Shown one piece after another: positions 2,400 to 30,969 of a DNA stretch of 39,101 bases (positions are counted from its first letter, which is position 1; each line of letters starts with the position of its first letter). The notes under the pieces were generated by a model that made no database searches, was not told the origin of the DNA, and saw only the letters and a program-made list of their open reading frames with translations. A program made the position numbers and the translations under genes. The stretch comes from Propionibacteriales bacterium (lineage in GTDB: Bacteria > Actinomycetota > Actinomycetes > Propionibacteriales > Nocardioidaceae): positions 1 through 39,101 of the forward strand of contig WHTB01000005.1 in the NCBI GenBank assembly GCA_009379735.1, in the 5' to 3' direction.

Positions 2400-3170
2400 T
2401 CAGGCGGTACGCGTGAACACCATCCGCAGACCGATCAGGGTCAGCCACGGCTCGTGCACCAGCGCGGTGCGACACTCCTCCATGGCGAACGGTGCCAGCC
2501 CGCCGGTGACGATCACGGTGACGTCGGCGGTATCCCAGCGCAGCTCGTCGATCATCCGCGTCACGATGCCGTCGATCTGCGCGGCGAAGCCGTAGACCGC
2601 ACCGGACTGCAGCGCTTCCACGGTGTTTTTGGCAACGACCGAACGTGGCCGCATCAGCTCGACCCGGCGCAGCTGCGCGCCCTTGGCGCCGAGCGCCTCG
2701 AGCGACAGCTCGATACCGGGCGCGATGGCGCCACCGACATACTCCCCGCGCGCACTCACGACGTCGAACGTCGTGGCAGTGCCGAGGTCGACGACGATCG
2801 CCGGACCCGGGTGCAGGCTGGATGCGGCCAGGGCGTTGAGGATCCGGTCGGTGCCGACCTCACGCGGGTTGTCCATCAGCACGGGTACGCCGGTGCGCAC
2901 ACCCGGCTCCACGACGACGCTGCGCACCCCGGCGTAGTGCCGGCTGAGCATCTCCCGCATCTCGTGCAGCACGGTCGGCACCGTCGAGCAGAGCGCCACG
3001 CCGTCGATGCCGTCCGCGTGCTGGCCGAGCAGCCCGGAGAAGACGACCGCCCACTCGTCGGCGGTCCGGCGGTCGAACGTGCCGACCCGCCAGTGCTCGG
3101 AGATCTGGTCACCGGCGAACAGGCCGAACACGGTGTGGGTGTTGCCGACATCGATGCACAGCAGGGTCAT
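2400..3170 (-). CDS. coaX: Type III pantothenate kinase
   Basis: 256 aa. It phosphorylates pantothenate to 4'-phosphopantothenate, the first step from vitamin B5 to CoA. The ASKHA-fold signature is present: N-terminal DVGNTHT (phosphate loop), PREVGTDR in the middle, DLGTATTFD and GGAIAPG in the second half. Type III kinases need a monovalent cation and are not feedback-inhibited by CoA (family knowledge). The ATG overlaps the nadC stop by four bases (ATGA), so translation is probably coupled. Its place behind panC and panD puts pantothenate synthesis and use in one transcript. Confidence 0.95.
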   Translation of the reverse strand: MTLLCIDVGNTHTVFGLFAGDQISEHWRVGTFDRRTADEWAVVFSGLLGQHADGIDGVALCSTVPTVLHEMREMLSRHYAGVRSVVVEPGVRTGVPVLMDNPREVGTDRILNALAASSLHPGPAIVVDLGTATTFDVVSARGEYVGGAIAPGIELSLEALGAKGAQLRRVELMRPRSVVAKNTVEALQSGAVYGFAAQIDGIVTRMIDELRWDTADVTVIVTGGLAPFAMEECRTALVHEPWLTLIGLRMVFTRTA

Positions 3171-4048
3171 GGCTGGGACCGCAGGTCGAAGGCCAGGTCG
3201 AGCACCGGCGCGGAGTGCGTCAGCGCACCCACGGCGAGGAAGTCGACCCCGGTCTCCGCGACCGTCGCCGCGACGTCCAGCGTGAGGCCGCCGCTGGCCT
3301 CCAGCTCGGCCCGGCCGGCCACGACTGCGACCGCCTCCCGCATCAGGTCGGGCGCCATGTTGTCCAGCAGGATGGACTCCGCGCCGGCGTCGAGCACCGG
3401 CTGGAGCTGGTCGAGCCGGGTGACCTCGACCTGCACCGGTAGGTCCGGGAACGCCTTGCGTACCGACGCGAACGCTTCGGCCGCCCCACCCGCCGCGAGG
3501 ACGTGGTTGTCCTTGATCAGCGCCTGGTCCGACAGCGACCGGCGGTGGTTGGCGCCGCCGCCGCAGCGGACGGCGTACTTCTCCAGCGACCGCATCAGCG
3601 GCGTGGTCTTGCGGGTGTCACGGACCCGTGCCTTGGTGTGCTGGACGGCGTCCGCCCAGCGGCGGGTGAGGGTCGCGACCCCCGACAGGTGGCAGCAGAA
3701 GTTCAGCGCCGTGCGCTCGGCGGTGAGCAGGGCCCGGGTGGGACCCTCCACGCTCAGGACGACGTCGCCCGCGCCGACCTGGGTGCCGTCGAAGACCCGG
3801 CGCTCGACCTCGGCCGCCCCGGCCATCCGCATCGCGACCTCGGCCACCAGCAGGCCGGCGACCACGCCGTCGGCGCGCGCGACCAGGTCACCCCAGACCC
3901 GCTGGTCCGCGGGGACCGTCGCCTCGGTCGTCACGTCGACCCCACCGTCGAGGTCCTCCTCGAGCGTCGCCGCCACCAGGTCGGACACACTCACCGGGTC
4001 GAGCCCGGCCTGGGTGAGCAACGTCGACAGGTCGTCGGGCAAGGTCAT
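3167..4048 (-). CDS. nadC: Nicotinate-nucleotide pyrophosphorylase (quinolinate phosphoribosyltransferase)
   Basis: 293 aa. It converts quinolinate and PRPP to nicotinate mononucleotide, CO2 and PPi in de novo NAD synthesis. Family motifs run in order: EEDLDGGVDVTT near the N-terminus, DTRKTTP, YAVRCGGGANHRRSL, LIKDNH, LLDN and EASGG. I chose the ATG at 4048, which overlaps the nadB stop in an ATGA and gives the usual family length. A longer reading from 4138 only adds nadB sequence read in another frame. It overlaps coaX downstream in the same way. Confidence 0.95.
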   Translation of the reverse strand: MTLPDDLSTLLTQAGLDPVSVSDLVAATLEEDLDGGVDVTTEATVPADQRVWGDLVARADGVVAGLLVAEVAMRMAGAAEVERRVFDGTQVGAGDVVLSVEGPTRALLTAERTALNFCCHLSGVATLTRRWADAVQHTKARVRDTRKTTPLMRSLEKYAVRCGGGANHRRSLSDQALIKDNHVLAAGGAAEAFASVRKAFPDLPVQVEVTRLDQLQPVLDAGAESILLDNMAPDLMREAVAVVAGRAELEASGGLTLDVAATVAETGVDFLAVGALTHSAPVLDLAFDLRSQP

Positions 4049-5727
4049 GCGTTCGTCCCCCGGGGTGTCGTCGACCGGGTGTACGTCACCTGCAGCCGGC
4101 CGTCGGATTCCATCGTGGTGTCCAGGTGACCGGCCCAATCGTCGGCGGTGTCCGGGAAGTCCTCGCGCCAGTGCGAGCCCCGCGTCTCCTCCCGCGCCTG
4201 CGCGGCCAGCAGCAGCGCGGTGCTGACGGTGGCGAGGTTGGTGGCCTCCCAGGCCTCAGTGCACGGGATGGACCGCGAGTCGGCGGACAGCTTGCCGACG
4301 GCGCCGAGCGTACGGGCGAGCCCGTCGCGGTCCCGCATCACCCCGGCGTCCTCGCTCATCCGGTGCTGCAGCTCCGCGACGACGGCCGGGTCGACCAGGC
4401 CGGGGGTACGCCGCTCGGCGGCGGGCTCGCGGCCCTCGGGCAGGGCGCGTGCGAGGTCGGCCGCGATCCGGCGGCCGAAGACGAGACCCTCGAGCAGCGA
4501 GTTCGAGGCCAGCCGGTTGGCGCCGTGCACCCCGGAGCAGGCCACCTCGCCGCAGGCGTACAGCCCGGGCACCGTGGTGCGTCCGTCCAGGTCGGTCGCG
4601 ACGCCACCCGACGCGTAGTGGCACGCCGGAGCGACCGGGATCAGCTCGGTCACCGGGTCGATGCCGTGCTCCCGGCAGGACGCGAGAATGGTCGGGAACC
4701 GCTCGGTCCACTTCTGCTCGCCGAAGCCGCGGGCGTCGAGCCACATGTGCGGGGTGCTGGTCTCCCGCATCCGCCGGGTGATCGCCTTGGCGACCACGTC
4801 GCGAGGGGCGAGATCGGCGAGCTCGTGCTGGCCCTGCATGAACCGTCGGCCGTCGTGGTCGACGAGGAACGCACCCTCGCCGCGTACCGCCTCCGACACC
4901 AGCGGCTGCTGACCACGCGAGTCGTCGCCGAGCCACATCACGGTGGGGTGGAACTGCACGAACTCCACGTCGCGCAGGGTGGCGCCGGCGCGCAGTGCCA
5001 ACGCCATCCCGTCACCGGTGGAGACACTCGGGTTGGTCGTGGCGTCGAAGACCTGGCCCATGCCGCCGCTGGCGAGGATGACGGCGCGGCAGCGGACCGC
5101 GCCGACGCCGTCGCGCTGGCCCTCGCCCATCACGTGCAGCGTCGCCCCGGCGACCGCGCCGTCGTCACCGAGCAGCAGGTCGAGGACCAAGGCGTGCTCG
5201 ACCACCTCGATGTCGGGCGCGCGGTGTACGGCCGCGACCAAGGCGCGCTGGATCTCTGCGCCGGTCGCGTCGCCGCCCGCATGCACGATCCGGTTGCGGT
5301 GGTGGCCACCCTCGCGGGTCAGCTGCAGCGCACCGGACTCCGCCGTGTCGAACCGGGTGCCGAGGTCGATCAGCTCCTGCAGCGCGTCGGGACCCTCGGT
5401 CACCAGCGTGCGTACGGCTGCCTCGTCGCAGAGCCCGGCGCCGGCGACCATGGTGTCGGCGAGGTGCTGGTCCGGGGAGTCCCCCGGCCCGATGGCGGCG
5501 GCGATGCCACCTTGCGCCCAGCGGGTGGAGCCGGCCGACAGGTTGTCCTTGGTGACGACCAGGACGCTGCCGAGCTCGCGGGCTCGCAACGCGGCGGTGA
5601 GCCCCGCGATCCCCGAACCGACGACGACGATGTCGGCGTACGTCGACCAGCCGGCCGCGGCCGACCGGAGCAGCAGCGGTAGCGGGGCGGGCGCGCCGTC
5701 GACCGGCCGGTCTTGGGTGGAGGTCAC
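4045..5727 (-). CDS. nadB: L-aspartate oxidase
   Basis: 560 aa flavoprotein that oxidises L-aspartate to iminoaspartate, the first NAD de novo step. An N-terminal dinucleotide-binding motif ([14 protein letters not shown], about 35-48) is followed by [39 protein letters not shown] and [23 protein letters not shown], all typical of NadB and of the wider succinate dehydrogenase flavoprotein family. The C-terminal helical domain is present. It starts at a GTG that overlaps the panD stop (GTGA). NadA, which normally takes the unstable product, is not adjacent. PanD just upstream uses the same substrate, aspartate. Confidence 0.95.
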
Positions 5728-6164
5728 CCGCGGAGGCTATCGGCGCCGGTGTCGCCGCGCACCAGGTGCATCCCGCCGGCCATCCCGGGGACGACCTCGG
5801 CCGGGTCACTCCCGGTGCCGATCACCTTGTTGTCCGCGTCGACGAACACCACGCTCGGCTCGAACTCGCGGGCCTCGGCGGTCTCCATTTGGCCGTACGC
5901 GATCAGGATGACGATGTCGCCGGGATGCACCAGCCGGGCGGCCGCGCCGTTGATGCCGATGACTCCCGAGCCGCGCTCACCGGCGATCGTGTACGTCTCG
6001 AGCCGGCTGCCGTTGGTGACGTCGACGATGTGCACGAGCTCGCCGGGCAGCAGGTCGGCCGCGTCCAGCAGGTCCGCGTCGACGGTCACCGAGCCCACGT
6101 AGTGCAGGTCGGCCTGGGTCACGGTGGCGCGGTGGATCTTGCTCTTCATCATGGTTCGTTGCAT
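5724..6164 (-). CDS. panD: Aspartate 1-decarboxylase proenzyme
   Basis: 146 aa from the ATG at 6164. It decarboxylates L-aspartate to beta-alanine for pantothenate. The pyruvoyl cofactor arises by self-cleavage in YVGS. With this start the cleaved bond is Gly24-Ser25, the same numbering as in E. coli, and a GGAG Shine-Dalgarno lies 5 bases upstream. The GTG six bases earlier has no suitable spacing. [15 protein letters not shown] before the site and [22 protein letters not shown] after it are conserved. It lies 43 bases after panC and overlaps nadB. Confidence 0.95.
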
Positions 6165-6207
6165 GGTCACTCCGGTTGTCAGTCCAGGCCGCTGTGGGGT
6201 CCCGGCG

Positions 6208-7056
6208 TCAGCCGCTCATGCTCAGCACGAGTGGCAGGTTGTCGATCAGTCGGGTGGTGCCGACTCGGCCGGCAACCAGGAGCCGCGCCTCGCCGGACTC
6301 GGGTGCGGGCGCAAGGTCGGGCGCCCGCAGGGCCAGGTAGTCGACGTCCAGGCCGGTGGCCGCGTCGAGAACCGCCTGCGCGGCTGCGAGCACGTCGGCG
6401 GCGGTGCCCCCGGCCTGCGCACCGGCCTGCAGTGCACGCGAGAGGGCGAGCGCGGTCGCGCGGTCGGCCTCGCCCAGGTAGCGGTTGCGCGATGACAACG
6501 CCAGTCCGTCGGCCTCACGTACGGTCTCGCCACCGACGACGTCGACGTCCAGGCAGAGGTCGGACACCATCCGCCGGATCAACACCAGCTGCTGGTAGTC
6601 CTTCTGCCCGAACACCGCGACATCCGGCCGGACCAGCCCGAACAGCTTGGCCACGACGGTGAGCACGCCGGCGAAGTGGGTCGGCCGCACGGCACCCTCG
6701 AGGTCGTCTCCCAGCGGTCCCGGGTCGACGGTCACCTGTGTCTCGCCGCCGGGGTAGATCTCGTCGACCGCCGGCGTGAATACCACGTCGGCACCGGCCT
6801 GCGCACAGATGGCGAGGTCGGCATCCAGGCTGCGGGGGTAGCGCTCGAAGTCCTCGCTCGGCCCGAACTGCGTCGGGTTGACGAAGATCGACACGACCAC
6901 CATGGAGCCGCGTAGCCGGGCCTCGTGCAGCAGGGCGAGGTGGCCCTCGTGCAGGGCGCCCATCGTGGGTACGAGGACGATCCGCTGCTCAGACCCGGCG
7001 TCGTCCTTGAGCGCGGTGCCCAGCTCGCCGCGGGTGCGGGCGACCGTCGGCGTCAT
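6208..7056 (-). CDS. panC: Pantothenate synthetase (pantoate--beta-alanine ligase)
   Basis: 282 aa. It joins pantoate and beta-alanine using ATP (to AMP and PPi). The HIGH-like nucleotide motif HEGH (36-39) lies in [40 protein letters not shown] and SSRNRYL follow in family order. The ATG overlaps the stop of the upstream DUF2520 gene by four bases. PanB is not in the window. Confidence 0.95.
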
Positions 7057-7931
7057 GACCTGGCCTGCACCAGCGCGTCGTCGAGCAGGGCCACGATCAC
7101 GCGGGCCCGGTCGAGCTGCAGGCGACCGTCGAGGACCGCGTGGCTGGCGGTGGCCCGGCCCATCGCCAGATAGCTCGCCAGCGCCTCGGGCGACGTGTCC
7201 GCGAGCGTCGCGAGGTGCGCGCGCACCGTGTCGACGTCGCCCCGCACGATCGGGCCGGTGAGGGCGGCGTCGCCGTACTTGAGGCTGTTGTCGAGGGCGG
7301 CCTGCAGCAGCGGACGGAGTGTGGACGCGGGGTCGGCCGCGCCGCTGGCCCGCAGCAGGTCCATCGACTGGCTGACCAAGGTCACCAGGTGGTTCGCACC
7401 GTGGGCGAGGGCCGCGTGATAGAGCACCCGCTGGTCCTCGTCGACCCAGTTGGTGCGGCCACCGAGGTCAGCGACCAGGGACTCGACCGTCGGACGGACA
7501 TCGGTGGCCGCCGTGCACCCGAACACCGTGCCCGGCAGGTGGGTGAGGTCGAGGTCGGTGCCGGTGAACGTCATCGCCGGGTGCATAGCAGCGACCTGCG
7601 CGCCTCGCCGGGCGGCTGGGGCGAGCACGCCGGCGCCGTGGCGGCCGCTGGTGTGCACGACGTACTGGCCGCTGCGGATCGCACCGGAGGCCGCGAGCAT
7701 GGTGACGACGTTGCTCAGCACGTCGTCGGGAACGGTGAGCAGCAGGATGTCCGCGGCCTTGGCGACATCGGTGGGCTTGCGGACCGGGACTCCCGGCAGC
7801 AGCGTCTCGATCCGGGTGCGGGATGCGTCGGACTCACCGCCGACGGCGGCAATGGTGTGCCCTGCCGTCCGGAGTGCGGCGGCTAGGACTGCGCCGACTC
7901 GACCGGCGCCGATCACCCCGATGTGGGCCAT
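7053..7931 (-). CDS. Rossmann-like/DUF2520 oxidoreductase, candidate ketopantoate reductase
   Basis: 292 aa. An N-terminal NAD(P)-binding fold (IGVIGAGRVGAVLAAALRTAGH, residues 4-25) includes the strand end LLLTVPDD. It is followed by HTSGRHGAGVL and AAMHPAMTFTG, typical of the Rossmann-like plus DUF2520 architecture related to 6-phosphogluconate and ketopantoate dehydrogenases. The all-helical C-terminal half would form the substrate site. It is the first gene of the pantothenate/NAD operon and overlaps panC, and no PanE is seen, so reduction of ketopantoate is a reasonable role; that is inference. The start has a good AAAGGCGAGG Shine-Dalgarno. Confidence 0.85.
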   Translation of the reverse strand: MAHIGVIGAGRVGAVLAAALRTAGHTIAAVGGESDASRTRIETLLPGVPVRKPTDVAKAADILLLTVPDDVLSNVVTMLAASGAIRSGQYVVHTSGRHGAGVLAPAARRGAQVAAMHPAMTFTGTDLDLTHLPGTVFGCTAATDVRPTVESLVADLGGRTNWVDEDQRVLYHAALAHGANHLVTLVSQSMDLLRASGAADPASTLRPLLQAALDNSLKYGDAALTGPIVRGDVDTVRAHLATLADTSPEALASYLAMGRATASHAVLDGRLQLDRARVIVALLDDALVQARS

Positions 7932-7953
7932 GTGCCTCGCCTTTCGTTCCAGT

Positions 7954-8033
7954 CCCCGATCGGGGTACCGGACGGTGTGCTGGCTGTGGTTGCTGGCTGT
8001 GGTGGCGTCCCTGTCGCGTGCCTGACCAGCCTA
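7954..8033 (-). promoter_or_regulatory. Candidate promoter and leader of the DUF2520-panC-panD-nadBC-coaX operon
   Basis: On the minus strand a TAGGCT box (8028-8033) would start a leader of about 90 bases. The leader contains two exact tandem copies of ACCACAGCCAGCA (8003 down to 7978) and the palindrome CCCCGATCGGGG (7965-7954) just before the Shine-Dalgarno. The palindrome could be an operator or a hairpin. I could not find a convincing -35. Confidence 0.3.
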
Positions 8034-8094
8034 GAGGTGACAACAACGAGGCGGTACGCGTGCTTCCCGTGGCCCTTCTCACACGCCCCGTCTA

Positions 8095-8188
8095 CTCGCG
8101 CCGTCGTTGCGCGAATGCACCAGCGGGCTGCCACGTGGTGCCGCCTCCTCGCGCCGACGTTGCGCGAATGCACCAGTGGGCGACCACG
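8095..8188 (+). repeat. Two direct copies of a 41-bp repeat (family B core)
   Basis: Units 8095-8135 and 8148-8188 match at nearly every base, 53 bases apart, each beginning CTCGCGCCG and containing GTTGCGCGAATGCACCAG. The core CTCGCGCCG..GTTGC.CGAATG is the same as one arm of the hairpin at 15464-15523, more than 7 kb away. Two copies do not make a CRISPR array. Confidence 0.7.
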
Positions 8189-8224
8189 GCCACGTCAAAG
8201 ATAATGCGCAGCATCGGGCCGTCA

Positions 8225-8257
8225 GCGTGCCAACTGCCACTCGGTGGATGGATGCAC
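8225..8257 (+). repeat. Dispersed repeat D, copy 1
   Basis: A 33-base stretch containing TGCCAACTGCCA and CTCGGTGGATGGATGC. It recurs in the opposite orientation at 27950-27981, where three extra bases split the two halves. It lies downstream of the DUF1353 gene end. Confidence 0.6.
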
Positions 8258-8296
8258 ACATCGGCCTTCCCGTGCCGCGCTGACCTGCGACCCCTC

Positions 8297-8357
8297 GTTG
8301 ACTGGCGCGTTGCGTAGGCCTGGCGTCCGGTTTGTCCCTACGAACGCGCCAGTCGAC
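8297..8357. repeat. Imperfect palindrome, family C copy 1
   Basis: The left arm contains GACTGGCGCGTTGCGTAGG and the right arm contains CCTACGAACGCGCCAGTC. The arms pair over about 20 bases with one or two mismatches around an 18-base loop. It lies 86 bases beyond the DUF1353 stop and may act as that gene's terminator. The left arm is found again, inverted, at 35860-35926. Confidence 0.65.
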
Positions 8358-8442
8358 GGCGGCAGACCCTGGGGTCCACCCACACATCCAGCAGGAGAGC
8401 CCCCAATTGGGCGACGTTCGACGTCGTCTCCGCCGGCCCGGC

Positions 8443-9192
8443 TCAGAAGTTCTCGTACGTCGCCGGCTCGTCGCCCGCCTGCTTGGGCGGCAGCGCGAAC
8501 GCCAACCCGTGCTCGAGGAGCCAGTAGACACCGAAACCGACCGCCCCCAGGATCGTCGGCGGCAGCACCCAGATGGCGGAAAGCGCGGCGGTCAGCCCGG
8601 CGCCGTACTGCCGGTCCCAGAGCAGCGCCGCGACGAACGGCGCGACCACCGCCGCGAGCATCAGCCACCAGTTGCCGTCGACGACACCGCGGTACGCCGC
8701 CGTCATGCCGGCCGCGGCACAGACCACCCAGATCAGCAGGGTGATCCGCCGGATGCCGCCGGCCCGCCACCGGGTGCCGAACGCCACCGCGGTCCACATC
8801 ATCCAGCGTCGGATGAACCGCACCCCGACCGCCTTGAGCATGAACCGGAAGTACCGGTCGGCGTCGGTGTCGGAGACGCCGGGTAGGGCGGTGTCACCGA
8901 TCAGCCGGTCATGCACCAGCGCGGCCGGCGTGTGGACGCCGTACGTGCCGATGAACCAGCGCAGCGCCGACGGCACGGACGCCAGGTCGGTGACAGGCTC
9001 GGGGCCGAGGTCCTCTGGCCGCAACGTGCGGGCCTCGTCGGGCAGACCGTCGACCCCGGTCGGTCCGACGAAGCGCATCGAGGACTCGAGCAGGAAGCTC
9101 TTCCGGTCGATCTGACGGACTCGGACGACGGCCGGCTGCGTCTCGTCGTCAGGGTCGACGAAGCAGTTGCCCCAGGGTGGCTTGTTCGACAT
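8443..9192 (-). CDS. DUF1353 domain protein with C-terminal membrane segments
   Basis: 249 aa. The N-terminal half (about 15-135) matches DUF1353: a beta-rich start (RKSFLLESSMRFVG), then TDLASVPSALRWFIGTYGVHTPAALVHDRLI and a helix ending near WTAVAFGTRW. DUF1353 is mostly seen in phage and bacterial proteins of unknown function, usually alone. Here it continues into hydrophobic segments (around 155-175, 180-198 and 205-240) that should anchor it in the membrane. I start it at the ATG at 9192, preceded by GGGAGGGTGGGG. Longer readings run through a repeat into the opposite-strand methyltransferase. A family A palindrome lies 18 bases upstream of the start. Confidence 0.75.
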   Translation of the reverse strand: MSNKPPWGNCFVDPDDETQPAVVRVRQIDRKSFLLESSMRFVGPTGVDGLPDEARTLRPEDLGPEPVTDLASVPSALRWFIGTYGVHTPAALVHDRLIGDTALPGVSDTDADRYFRFMLKAVGVRFIRRWMMWTAVAFGTRWRAGGIRRITLLIWVVCAAAGMTAAYRGVVDGNWWLMLAAVVAPFVAALLWDRQYGAGLTAALSAIWVLPPTILGAVGFGVYWLLEHGLAFALPPKQAGDEPATYENF

Positions 9193-9209
9193 GACCCCCA
9201 CCCTCCCGT

Positions 9210-9266
9210 TGAGTGTGACGTTTTGGACAGACACGCCAGCGTGTCGCGTCCGAAACGTCACACTCA
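9210..9266. repeat. Family A palindromic element, copy A1
   Basis: A 57-bp imperfect palindrome. The left arm begins TGAGTGTGACGTTTTGGACA and has the AGACACG form. The right arm, read in reverse, has the one-base-longer GCGACACG form. Copies A2 (21162-21232) and A3 (36671-36727) share the arms. This copy sits between divergent genes, so here it cannot be a simple shared terminator. It would form a hairpin just before the Shine-Dalgarno of the DUF1353 gene. Confidence 0.8.
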
Positions 9267-9293
9267 GCGGGGATTTCGGTCCGCGACCGGCAC

Positions 9294-9307
9294 TAGCCTG
9301 AGCGCCA
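9294..9307 (+). promoter_or_regulatory. Leaderless promoter (-10 TAGCCT) for the 9-codon ORF and methyltransferase
   Basis: TAGCCT at 9294-9299 is followed by 7 bases and then the ATG at 9307, so the transcript should begin at or next to that A. The same spacing is seen before other genes of the window that lack a Shine-Dalgarno (12560, 15428, 33048). Confidence 0.5.
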
Positions 9308-9336
9308 TGGCCTACCCCCGACTCCGCTGGTGGTGA
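9307..9336 (+). CDS. Nine-residue upstream ORF (MAYPRLRWW), probably leaderless
   Basis: ATG to TGA encodes MAYPRLRWW. The ATG lies at the predicted transcription start. The stop overlaps the GTG GTG start region of the methyltransferase, which has no Shine-Dalgarno and no earlier in-frame ATG or GTG before an in-frame TAG at 9294. Ribosomes that load on the leaderless ATG could therefore terminate and restart on the methyltransferase. That is inference from layout only, and the peptide may have no function of its own. Confidence 0.4.
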   Translation: MAYPRLRWW

Positions 9337-10262
9337 CCGACCCGACCGGTCCCTGGCCGACCTGGCGGGACGCCTGGAGCACCGCGTTGTACGGACCGGG
9401 CGGCTTCTTCGTCCGGTCCCGGCCGGCCGACCACTTCCGCACCTCGGTGCACGCGTCGGCGCTGTTCGCCGACGCAGTCCACGAACTCGCCCGCCGTGCC
9501 GACCTGCGCACGGTCGTCGACCTGGGCGCGGGCGGTGGGGAGCTGCTGCGCCACCTGCACGCCGCCGACCAGGACCTGCACCTGGTCGGCGTCGACCTGG
9601 CGCCGCGCCCGGACGACCTGCCGGCGGCCGTCGGCTGGCGCGCGGACCTGCCCGAGCAGGTCGACGGGCTCGTCGTCGCGAACGAGTGGCTCGACAACAT
9701 CCCGTGCGACGTCGTCGAGGCTGACCAGGACGGGGTCGCGCGCACCGTGCACGTCGAGCCGTCCACCGGGGCCGAGCGGCTCGGCGAACTCTGCACCGAC
9801 CCGTGGCTCGGGCGGTGGTGGCCGCTGAGCGAGCCCGGGACCCGGGCCGAGGTGGGCAGCGCGCGGGATGCGGCGTGGTCCGACGTCGTCGGCCGGCTGG
9901 GGCGTGGGGTCGCGGTGGCGATGGACTACGGCCACACGATGGACACCCGCCCGGCCTTCGGTTCACTCACGTCGTACCAGCACGGGCGGGAGGTGCCTCC
10001 GGTCCCCGACGCCAGCCGCGACGTGACGGCGCACGTCGCGGTCGACTCACTGCCGGCCGACCGGGTCGTCGACCAGCGGCAGGCGCTCGGCGCGCTCGGG
10101 ATCAGTGGCGAGCGTCCGCCTCTCGACCGCGCGCACGACGACCCCCGCGGCTACCTGCGAGCTCTCAGCACGGCTACCGAGGCGGCCGAGCTCACCGCGC
10201 GTGGCGGGCTGGGCGACTTCGTCTGGGTCGTCTCCGCCCGGGGCGTCCCGCTGCTGCTGTGA
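9330..10262 (+). CDS. SAM-dependent methyltransferase, MidA/NDUFAF7 family (DUF185)
   Basis: 310 aa. Family motifs in order: ALYGPGGFF (about 20-28), HFRTSVHASALFA, the SAM-binding VVDLGAGGGELL (about 62-73), VVANEWLDNIP (the NEflDalP signature), VAVAMDYG, SLTSYQHGREV, ASRDVTAHVAVDSL and DQRQALGALGI. Together these identify Methyltransf_28, whose mitochondrial member NDUFAF7 symmetrically dimethylates an arginine of NDUFS2 during complex I assembly (established knowledge). It is somewhat shorter than the eukaryotic proteins. A NuoD (NDUFS2) homologue lies 458 bases downstream on the same strand, across one small opposite-strand gene. Translation starts at GTG 9330 or GTG 9333. I infer NuoD is the substrate; no other candidate is nearby. 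Confidence 0.9.
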   Translation: MVTDPTGPWPTWRDAWSTALYGPGGFFVRSRPADHFRTSVHASALFADAVHELARRADLRTVVDLGAGGGELLRHLHAADQDLHLVGVDLAPRPDDLPAAVGWRADLPEQVDGLVVANEWLDNIPCDVVEADQDGVARTVHVEPSTGAERLGELCTDPWLGRWWPLSEPGTRAEVGSARDAAWSDVVGRLGRGVAVAMDYGHTMDTRPAFGSLTSYQHGREVPPVPDASRDVTAHVAVDSLPADRVVDQRQALGALGISGERPPLDRAHDDPRGYLRALSTATEAAELTARGGLGDFVWVVSARGVPLLL

Positions 10263-10719: not shown

Positions 10720-11913
10720 ATGACCGAGCAGCGCATTGTCGGCCTGGGAGCGGGGGCGACAGGCTTCCGCAGCTACGAGCGCGGCGGTGGTGACGAGCTC
10801 GCGACCGAGGACATGGTCCTCAACATCGGGCCGCAGCATCCGGCGACGCACGGGGTGCTCCGGCTCAAGCTGACCCTCGACGGTGAACGCATCGTCGCCT
10901 GCGAGCCGATCGTCGGCTACATGCACCGCGGCGTGGAGAAGCTGTTCGAGGTGCGCGACTATCGCCAGATCATCGTGCTCGCCAACCGGCACGACTGGCT
11001 ATCGGCGTTCTCGTCCGAGCTCGGCGTCGTGCTCGCGGTCGAGCGGATGCTCGGCATGGAGGTGCCGGTTCGCGCCACCTGGAGCCGTACCCTGCTGGCC
11101 GAGCTGAACCGCGTGCTCAACCACCTGATGTTCCTCGGCTCGTACCCGTTGGAGATCGGGGCGATCACGCCGATCTTCTACGCCTTCCGCGAACGCGAGA
11201 CGATCCAGCAGGTGATGGAGGAGCTGTCCGGCGGTCGGATGCACTACATGTTCAACCGGGTCGGTGGTCTGAAAGAGGACCTGCCGGCCGGTTGGCTCGA
11301 CCGGGCCGGCGCGGCCGTGGCTGCTGTCCGCCGCCGGCTGCCCGAGATCCGGCAGATCATCCTCGGCAACGAGATCTTCAAGGCCCGCACCCAGGACGTC
11401 GGACAGCTGTCACCCGAGCTGGTCCAGGCGTACGGCGTCTCCGGACCGATCGCCCGCGCCTCCGGCGTCGACTTCGACCTCCGCCGCGACGAGCCGTACC
11501 TCGCCTACGACGAGCTGGCCGCCGACGGCGTGCTGCGCGTGGTGACCCGCGACGAGGGCGACTGCTACGCGCGGTTCTCGGTGCTGTTCGACCAGGTGCA
11601 GGTGTCCCTCGATCTGGCCGACGCGTGCATCGAGCAGCTGCGCAGCCTGCCGGCCGGCCCGATCAACCAGCGGTTGCCGAAGATCCTGAAAGCACCCGAG
11701 GGCGCAACGTACTGCTGGACCGAGAACCCGCTCGGCATGAACGGCTACTACCTGGTGTCGCGCGGCGAGAAGACGCCGTGGCGGCTGAAGCTACGGTCGG
11801 CGTCCTTCAACAACATCGCGGTGCTGCCCGAGGTGCTGGGCGGCTGCGTGGTCGCCGACATGGTCGCGATCCTCGGCTCGATGTTCTTCGTCGTCGGCGA
11901 CATCGACAAGTAG
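10720..11913 (+). CDS. Stand-alone NuoD-like 49-kDa subunit paralogue of complex I
   Basis: 397 aa. The homology to NuoD/NDUFS2 runs end to end: [15 protein letters not shown] (35-49), [12 protein letters not shown] (66-77), [45 protein letters not shown], and the C-terminal [20 protein letters not shown]. Compared without gaps to bovine NDUFS2 (offset 15), the pocket His59 is kept (His44) and the methylated Arg85 is kept (Arg70). The quinone-binding Tyr108 is Trp93 and the pocket Asp160 is Glu145. No other nuo gene is present, so it is an orphan paralogue (often annotated nuoD2), probably of a specialised or partial complex. No Shine-Dalgarno precedes the ATG; a weak box CAGCAT lies 6 bases before it. 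Confidence 0.9.
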
Positions 11914-30810: not shown

Positions 30811-30860
30811 GCGGTCCTCCCGGGCACAGGGAGGGGAAGTCGCGAGGTGGCGACTCGAGT

Positions 30861-30952
30861 CTCGACTCCCTCCACCGGTGCTAGCCGGATCAGGTTCGAG
30901 GGTCTGCGGCCGTTTCCGCACTCTCAGCGCCGGTGGGCGCTCCCCTGTCGTA
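30861..30952 (-). promoter_or_regulatory. TPP riboswitch (THI element) controlling ykoEDC
   Basis: On the minus strand the conserved segments appear in order: GGGGAGCGCC, GGCGCTGAGAGTG, ACCCTCGAACCTGATC, CGGCTAGCACCGG and GGAGGGAGTCG. These are the P1 strands, the CUGAGA pyrimidine-sensor loop and the GAACCUGAUC stem. A small hairpin AGTCGC/GCGACT (30838-30855) lies between it and the GGGAGG of ykoE. No T run is visible, so ligand binding probably blocks the ribosome site rather than ending transcription (inference). Confidence 0.93.
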
Positions 30953-30969
30953 GGGGCTCAGCGTACCTC

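Follow-up and report, generated by a model that had tools for sequence, protein, structure and literature searches.

A DUF2520 gene overlapping panC in an actinobacterial pantothenate operon is a candidate for a PanG-type ketopantoate reductase

Results

The window, by which we mean the whole 39,101-nucleotide stretch that was analysed (positions 1 to 39,101 of contig WHTB01000005.1, Propionibacteriales assembly GCA_009379735.1), carries on its minus strand, at 7053-7931, an open reading frame that starts with ATG and encodes a protein of 292 aa, a panG-like gene product and proposed ketopantoate reductase. Pfam placed a Rossmann-like domain (PF10727, 104.6 bits, cut-off 23) and a DUF2520 domain (PF10728, 114.9 bits, cut-off 25) in this protein, confirming with both domains above cut-off what the first-pass annotation had said of the first gene of the operon. 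The DUF2520 domain sits behind the Rossmann domain, as is typical of PanG-type proteins, and a search of the whole source genome returned this gene as its single DUF2520 match. Up to an E value of 0.001 the protein matched neither ApbA_C nor TIGR00745, which places it outside the PanE/ApbA family, and it is likewise not a member of the IlvC/KARI family, since KARI_C was absent and only a KARI_N-like Rossmann match of 24.1 bits was found.

The DUF2520 gene stands first in a run of minus-strand genes in the order panC-panD-nadB-nadC-coaX, and is thus linked to pan genes in an operon, a further trait of PanG-type genes. Its stop codon and the panC start codon share the sequence ATGA (7056-7053, minus strand), the four-base overlap that had been described previously. 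The gene for PanC, the pantoate--beta-alanine ligase, lies at 6208-7056 (TIGR00018, 285.6 bits, cut-off 212.75) and is followed by panD, encoding aspartate 1-decarboxylase, at 5724-6170 (TIGR00223, 170.8 bits, cut-off 106). Two genes omitted from the first-pass annotation stand between panD and coaX, namely nadB for L-aspartate oxidase at 4045-5727 (NF005867, 834.8 bits, cut-off 639) and nadC for quinolinate phosphoribosyltransferase (PF01729, PF02749), for which 3167-4138 are the limits of the open reading frame and the true start is perhaps internal. The gene for the type III pantothenate kinase, coaX, occupies 2400-3170 (PF03309, 234.1 bits), and a class II aminoacyl-tRNA synthetase gene comes next at 869-2377 (PF00152), which we call lysS-like as an interpretation, given that Pfam assigns it only to class II D/K/N. 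Neither panE nor panB was matched among the genes of this operon.

The nearest same-strand upstream frame with a Pfam match, among the frames tested, lies about 0.5 kb away at 8443-9966; its DUF1353 match is confined to residues 325-394, in the C-terminal part of the 507-aa frame, the start of which is probably internal. A scan of 7900-8600 for consensus promoters found none, and Rfam gave no match near the DUF2520 gene. The only Rfam match above the gathering score in the window was a TPP riboswitch (RF00059, 59.7 bits) at 30850-30956 on the minus strand. On the plus strand, 9330-10262 encodes a Methyltransf_28 (PF02636) protein, near which a 397-aa frame at 10720-11913 resembles, by eye, NADH dehydrogenase subunit D.

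The earlier reading of this locus as a pantothenate operon with panC, panD and coaX but no panE holds for the operon and fails for the genome as a whole, in which two other proteins belong to the PanE family, so that a genome-wide lack of panE was rejected. One of them (L002) is above the cut-off (TIGR00745, 183.4 bits; NF005089, 447.4 bits) and carries a K...N...N motif; the other (L003) falls slightly below the TIGR00745 cut-off (140.1 versus 141.35 bits). The gene for L002 (L085 4616-5644, G000:C195) adjoins MoeA, molybdopterin oxidoreductase and Nuo51-like genes rather than pan genes, with an ABC transporter that has a phosphonate-type binding protein also nearby. Because it lies beside molybdopterin-enzyme genes, it may not serve the pantothenate pathway, and it is possibly a catabolic paralogue, that is, a reductase misnamed panE. 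The genome further contains ilvC, on contig C473, and panB, whose presence had been put forward as a check, is found on contig C286. With DUF2520, the PanE family and ilvC all represented, the candidates for ketopantoate reductase in this genome are of three kinds; the DUF2520 protein is therefore not the sole one and, given ilvC and a PanE-family protein above cut-off, its gene need not be required.

A likeness to Francisella PanG had been suggested in the first-pass annotation. PanG of Francisella (FTT1388) is reportedly a ketopantoate reductase, as described by Miller et al. in 2013; F. tularensis is not known to have another ketopantoate reductase candidate, although being the sole one is not a defining trait of PanG. 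A passage of PMC4572677 also names FTT1388 as the Francisella ketopantoate reductase, and a table seen in PMC5479911 lists PanG with 1,388 and '27' and PanC with 1,390. We read these figures as FTT locus numbers and kDa; read in this way, they fit a protein of 240 aa whose gene has panB and then panC next to it. We searched nine genomes, comprising four Francisella genomes picked by a 16S pattern and five others, and found DUF2520 above cut-off in all four of the former versus none of the latter. In F. philomiragia, a 240-aa DUF2520 protein heads the order DUF2520-panB-panC-panD-coaX, and the Francisella DUF2520 protein is taken as PanG on the basis of this operon and gene order. TIGR00745 above cut-off was found in none of the four Francisella genomes and in four of the five others of the set. 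KARI_C was present in three of the four and absent from the tick endosymbiont (G152), which leaves DUF2520 as the one candidate there among the three kinds. In F. noatunensis (G151), the DUF2520 gene is split over two matches (L077 and L080), which suggests a broken panG in that strain or assembly.

The window protein aligned with Francisella PanG by BLASTP (45.4 bits, E 3e-10, 26% over 186 aa) and by profile-profile comparison with hhalign (E 3.5e-18, 215 columns spanning both domains). The homology is thus nearly full-length, and together with the shared invariant residues described below it bears out the suggested likeness, while the identity is low, at 18-26% depending on the method and the protein. 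In comparisons against 300 shuffles, the window protein scored 15.4, 13.2 and 8.9 SD with three Francisella proteins, and 7.0 and 3.6 SD with the PanE-family proteins L003 and L002, respectively; the score against L003 indicates that superfamily likeness explains part of such values. PanE/ApbA proteins (TIGR00745) share with the window protein the proposed reaction and a Rossmann N-terminus, but the window protein lacks ApbA_C, and its profile alignment with L002 was limited to 67 N-terminal Rossmann columns. The correspondence with Francisella PanG comprises the DUF2520 domain, a pan operon headed by the gene, the near full-length profile match and the 14 invariants. Several differences were also seen: at 240 aa, Francisella PanG is the shorter protein, with an N-terminus that falls short of the Pfam Rossmann-like model; the F. 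philomiragia operon includes panB and shows no nadB or nadC between panD and coaX, whereas the window operon is the reverse; and the four Francisella genomes are without TIGR00745 above cut-off, whereas ilvC and a panE-like gene both occur in the source genome of the window.

We then aligned 33 sequences, consisting of the window protein, three Francisella proteins and 29 out of 30 additional loci from the phylum, and found 14 invariant residues: G10, D69, H93, G96, H117, P118, Y171, H172, N180, N215, G226, P227, R230 and D232. The window protein retains all 14. The 30 loci were the best-scoring among 97 DUF2520-bearing genomes rather than a random draw, and weaker members of the family may thus vary more. 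Six motif-divergent loci (L005, L008, L009, L015, L023 and L030) were included and a fragment (L024) was left out; adding these six full-length loci reduced the set from 16 to 14, with A173 and G231 ceasing to be invariant. The N-termini of four rows (L016, L021, L031 and L034) were trimmed. Two of the divergent proteins, L008 and L009, have Cys where the GPxxRGD motif has its second Gly, and in their genomes (G033 and G018) DUF2520 and panC are on different contigs.

An AlphaFold2 model of the window protein (pLDDT 96.8, pTM 0.89) confidently predicts a fold of the 6-phosphogluconate-dehydrogenase kind. The top PDB match was BF3122 (3d1l; Z 22.3, rmsd 2.2, 253 aligned), followed by TM1727 (2i76; Z 20.7, rmsd 3.0, 241 aligned), with hydroxyisobutyrate and prephenate dehydrogenases, KARI and imine reductases ranking after them. 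Neither of the two structure lists contained an entry titled ketopantoate reductase in its best 50 matches, which excludes nothing. The two top matches are both solved structures of profile relatives, for which no function is stated. Within the range that aligns, TM1727 retains the residues of HP, YH..N, N215 and GPxxRGD. In BF3122, on the other hand, H117 is replaced by Y, Y171 by L, N215 by K and G231 by Y, and since this protein differs in these motif residues it may do something other than PanG. The DUF2520 domain alone is therefore no proof of the reaction, and we propose that it is the set of motif residues that may mark the PanG-type members of DUF2520.

We examined how these genes are distributed over 149 genomes from the phylum of the window, obtained in one draw, at least 90% complete, including the source genome itself and many drafts. 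DUF2520 was present in 97 genomes, panC in 128 and KARI_C in 137; TIGR00745 was above cut-off in 49, a count that hinges on the cut-off because 146 of the 149 have some match up to an E value of 0.001. All genomes not listed as positive were counted as DUF2520-negative, and one genome (G146) was counted as panC-negative by elimination. DUF2520 was found in 96 of the 128 genomes with panC versus 1 of the 21 without it (Fisher p 6e-10), and the association persisted when one random genome was taken per family (median p 0.0014). For TIGR00745 above cut-off, the direction was opposite (38 of 128 versus 11 of 21, p 0.048; median p 0.65 with one random genome per family). Three genomes (G020, G094 and G114) are each the sole panC-negative genome of their own family and also lack DUF2520, and the remaining sampled members of those families have both genes. 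The sole genome of the 149 with DUF2520 but no panC match (G060) belongs to the same class as the source genome.

Of the 96 genomes that carry both genes, 86 have DUF2520 within 3 kb upstream of panC and on its strand; in three it is near panC on the opposite strand and in seven it is farther away or on another contig. Seven panC-positive genomes have neither TIGR00745 above cut-off nor KARI_C, and six of these have DUF2520; the seventh, a draft (G010), lacks DUF2520, panE and ilvC altogether. DUF2520 is absent from 32 of the 128 panC-positive genomes, comprising 22 with ilvC only, nine with panE and ilvC, and G010 with none. Among panC-positive genomes, DUF2520 is about equally common with panE (29/38) and without it (67/90), and it is thus no simple replacement of panE.

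Discussion

The protein domains, the homology to PanG, the invariant residues in both domains, the predicted fold, the operon linkage and the co-occurrence with panC all support a PanG-type ketopantoate reductase as the candidate function of the window gene, a reading to which we assign a probability of roughly 80%. Being related to PanG, the gene would probably fill the step that is seemingly absent from the operon. The N-terminal Rossmann domain would bind NAD(P)H, with NADPH as the probable cofactor, and the C-terminal helical DUF2520 domain would close the active site and bind ketopantoate, which would presumably be reduced to pantoate and handed to PanC, the product of the next, overlapping gene. 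The putative catalytic and substrate site would consist of H117, N215, the turn that carries GPxxRGD and the invariant Y171-H172...N180 helix, which would take the place of the catalytic Lys/Asn helix of PanE-type enzymes. In this genome the step is probably shared with IlvC, and perhaps also with the PanE-family protein, and the DUF2520 protein is possibly redundant for it. The refutation envisaged in the first-pass annotation combined a canonical panE elsewhere in the genome with a lack of similarity to PanG; a PanE-family gene does exist elsewhere, but the protein is similar to PanG.

The operon position would also fit a regulator or a partner protein, and a reductase of the same superfamily could act on another substrate while IlvC, the PanE-family protein or both reduce ketopantoate. 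We consider this last explanation unlikely, although the most credible of the alternatives. The source genome does have L002 and ilvC, 32 of the 128 panC-positive genomes manage without DUF2520, and PMC4353338 states, with reference to Merkamm 2003, that IlvC of Corynebacterium glutamicum makes up for a missing panE, and calls annotation in this superfamily error-prone. Against this explanation stand the near full-length homology and the invariant residues in common with Francisella PanG, the strong linkage to panC, the joint absence of DUF2520 and panC from G020, G094 and G114, and the neighbours of L002, which are not pan genes.

Less probable still is that the protein regulates or connects pantothenate and folate synthesis, a role proposed in 2012 for Rv3603c/COG5495 of Mycobacterium tuberculosis; an operon link with panC and with folate genes is reported in PMC3317503. 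One relative (L011) has a folK-like gene upstream of DUF2520 and panB directly downstream, an order that favours such a role and may also account for the earlier idea of a folate-pantothenate link. PanB uses methylene-tetrahydrofolate, which would explain the folate connection, and the near-intact dinucleotide-binding glycines, the active-site-like invariants and the membership of Francisella PanG in the same family all point to an enzyme rather than a regulator. We regard as similarly improbable an inactive protein retained as a structural partner of PanC: the gene overlaps panC, and a related C. glutamicum protein (3dfu) keeps HP but has lost YH in an alignment that stops at profile position 197, before N215; the window protein, however, retains all of the 14 invariants.

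The link between DUF2520 and PanG is already in print, so that the idea is sound but not new: PMC4572677 presents a Corynebacterium ulceribovis DUF2520 protein, a PanG-like candidate, as homologous to EF1861/FTT1388 in the absence of panE. In the excerpts available, a Rhodococcus 'Ketopantoate reductase PanG' appears on a list in PMC8557817, PanE and PanG are treated as alternatives in PMC6593275, and panG homologues are noted in Clostridioides difficile and Coxiella (PMC4207893, PMC5449765). Rv3603c is reported in an operon with panC by PMC3317503, which guessed at a regulatory role, and PMC6710366 lists it with those pantothenate-metabolism proteins whose abundance is raised in a strain deleted for leuD and panCD; PMC7770189 attaches the label Rv3603c to coaX, at odds with PMC3317503. 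Bacillus subtilis 'PanG' (YkpB) is placed in the same orthologous group as PanE in a passage of PMC11487621, and is therefore probably not a DUF2520 protein, which amounts to a clash of names. A term search of PMC5241402 found none of the genes, and among the literature matches listed, partly in excerpt and covering few subscription journals, we saw no actinobacterial DUF2520 protein whose activity was reported as measured. The present analysis adds a direct comparison with Francisella in both homology and operon, a signature of 14 residues, and the observation that across the phylum sample DUF2520 follows panC whereas TIGR00745 above cut-off does not.

These findings suggest a likely function for a 'domain of unknown function' gene that is common next to panC, and would fill in the pantothenate pathway in many genomes seemingly without panE. 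We put forward tentatively, at slightly less than even odds, that the main pathway-bound ketopantoate reductase of the phylum is the DUF2520 enzyme rather than PanE, and that many members of the PanE family there are catabolic paralogues that owe their name to the pathway. If this is true, the mycobacterial DUF2520 gene would explain why the loss of panE (Rv2573) is harmless in M. tuberculosis. A 2020 review of tuberculosis CoA targets (PMC7770189) describes panE of M. tuberculosis as non-essential, most likely because unnamed 'other enzymes' act; for these, the DUF2520 protein encoded in the operon is a direct candidate.
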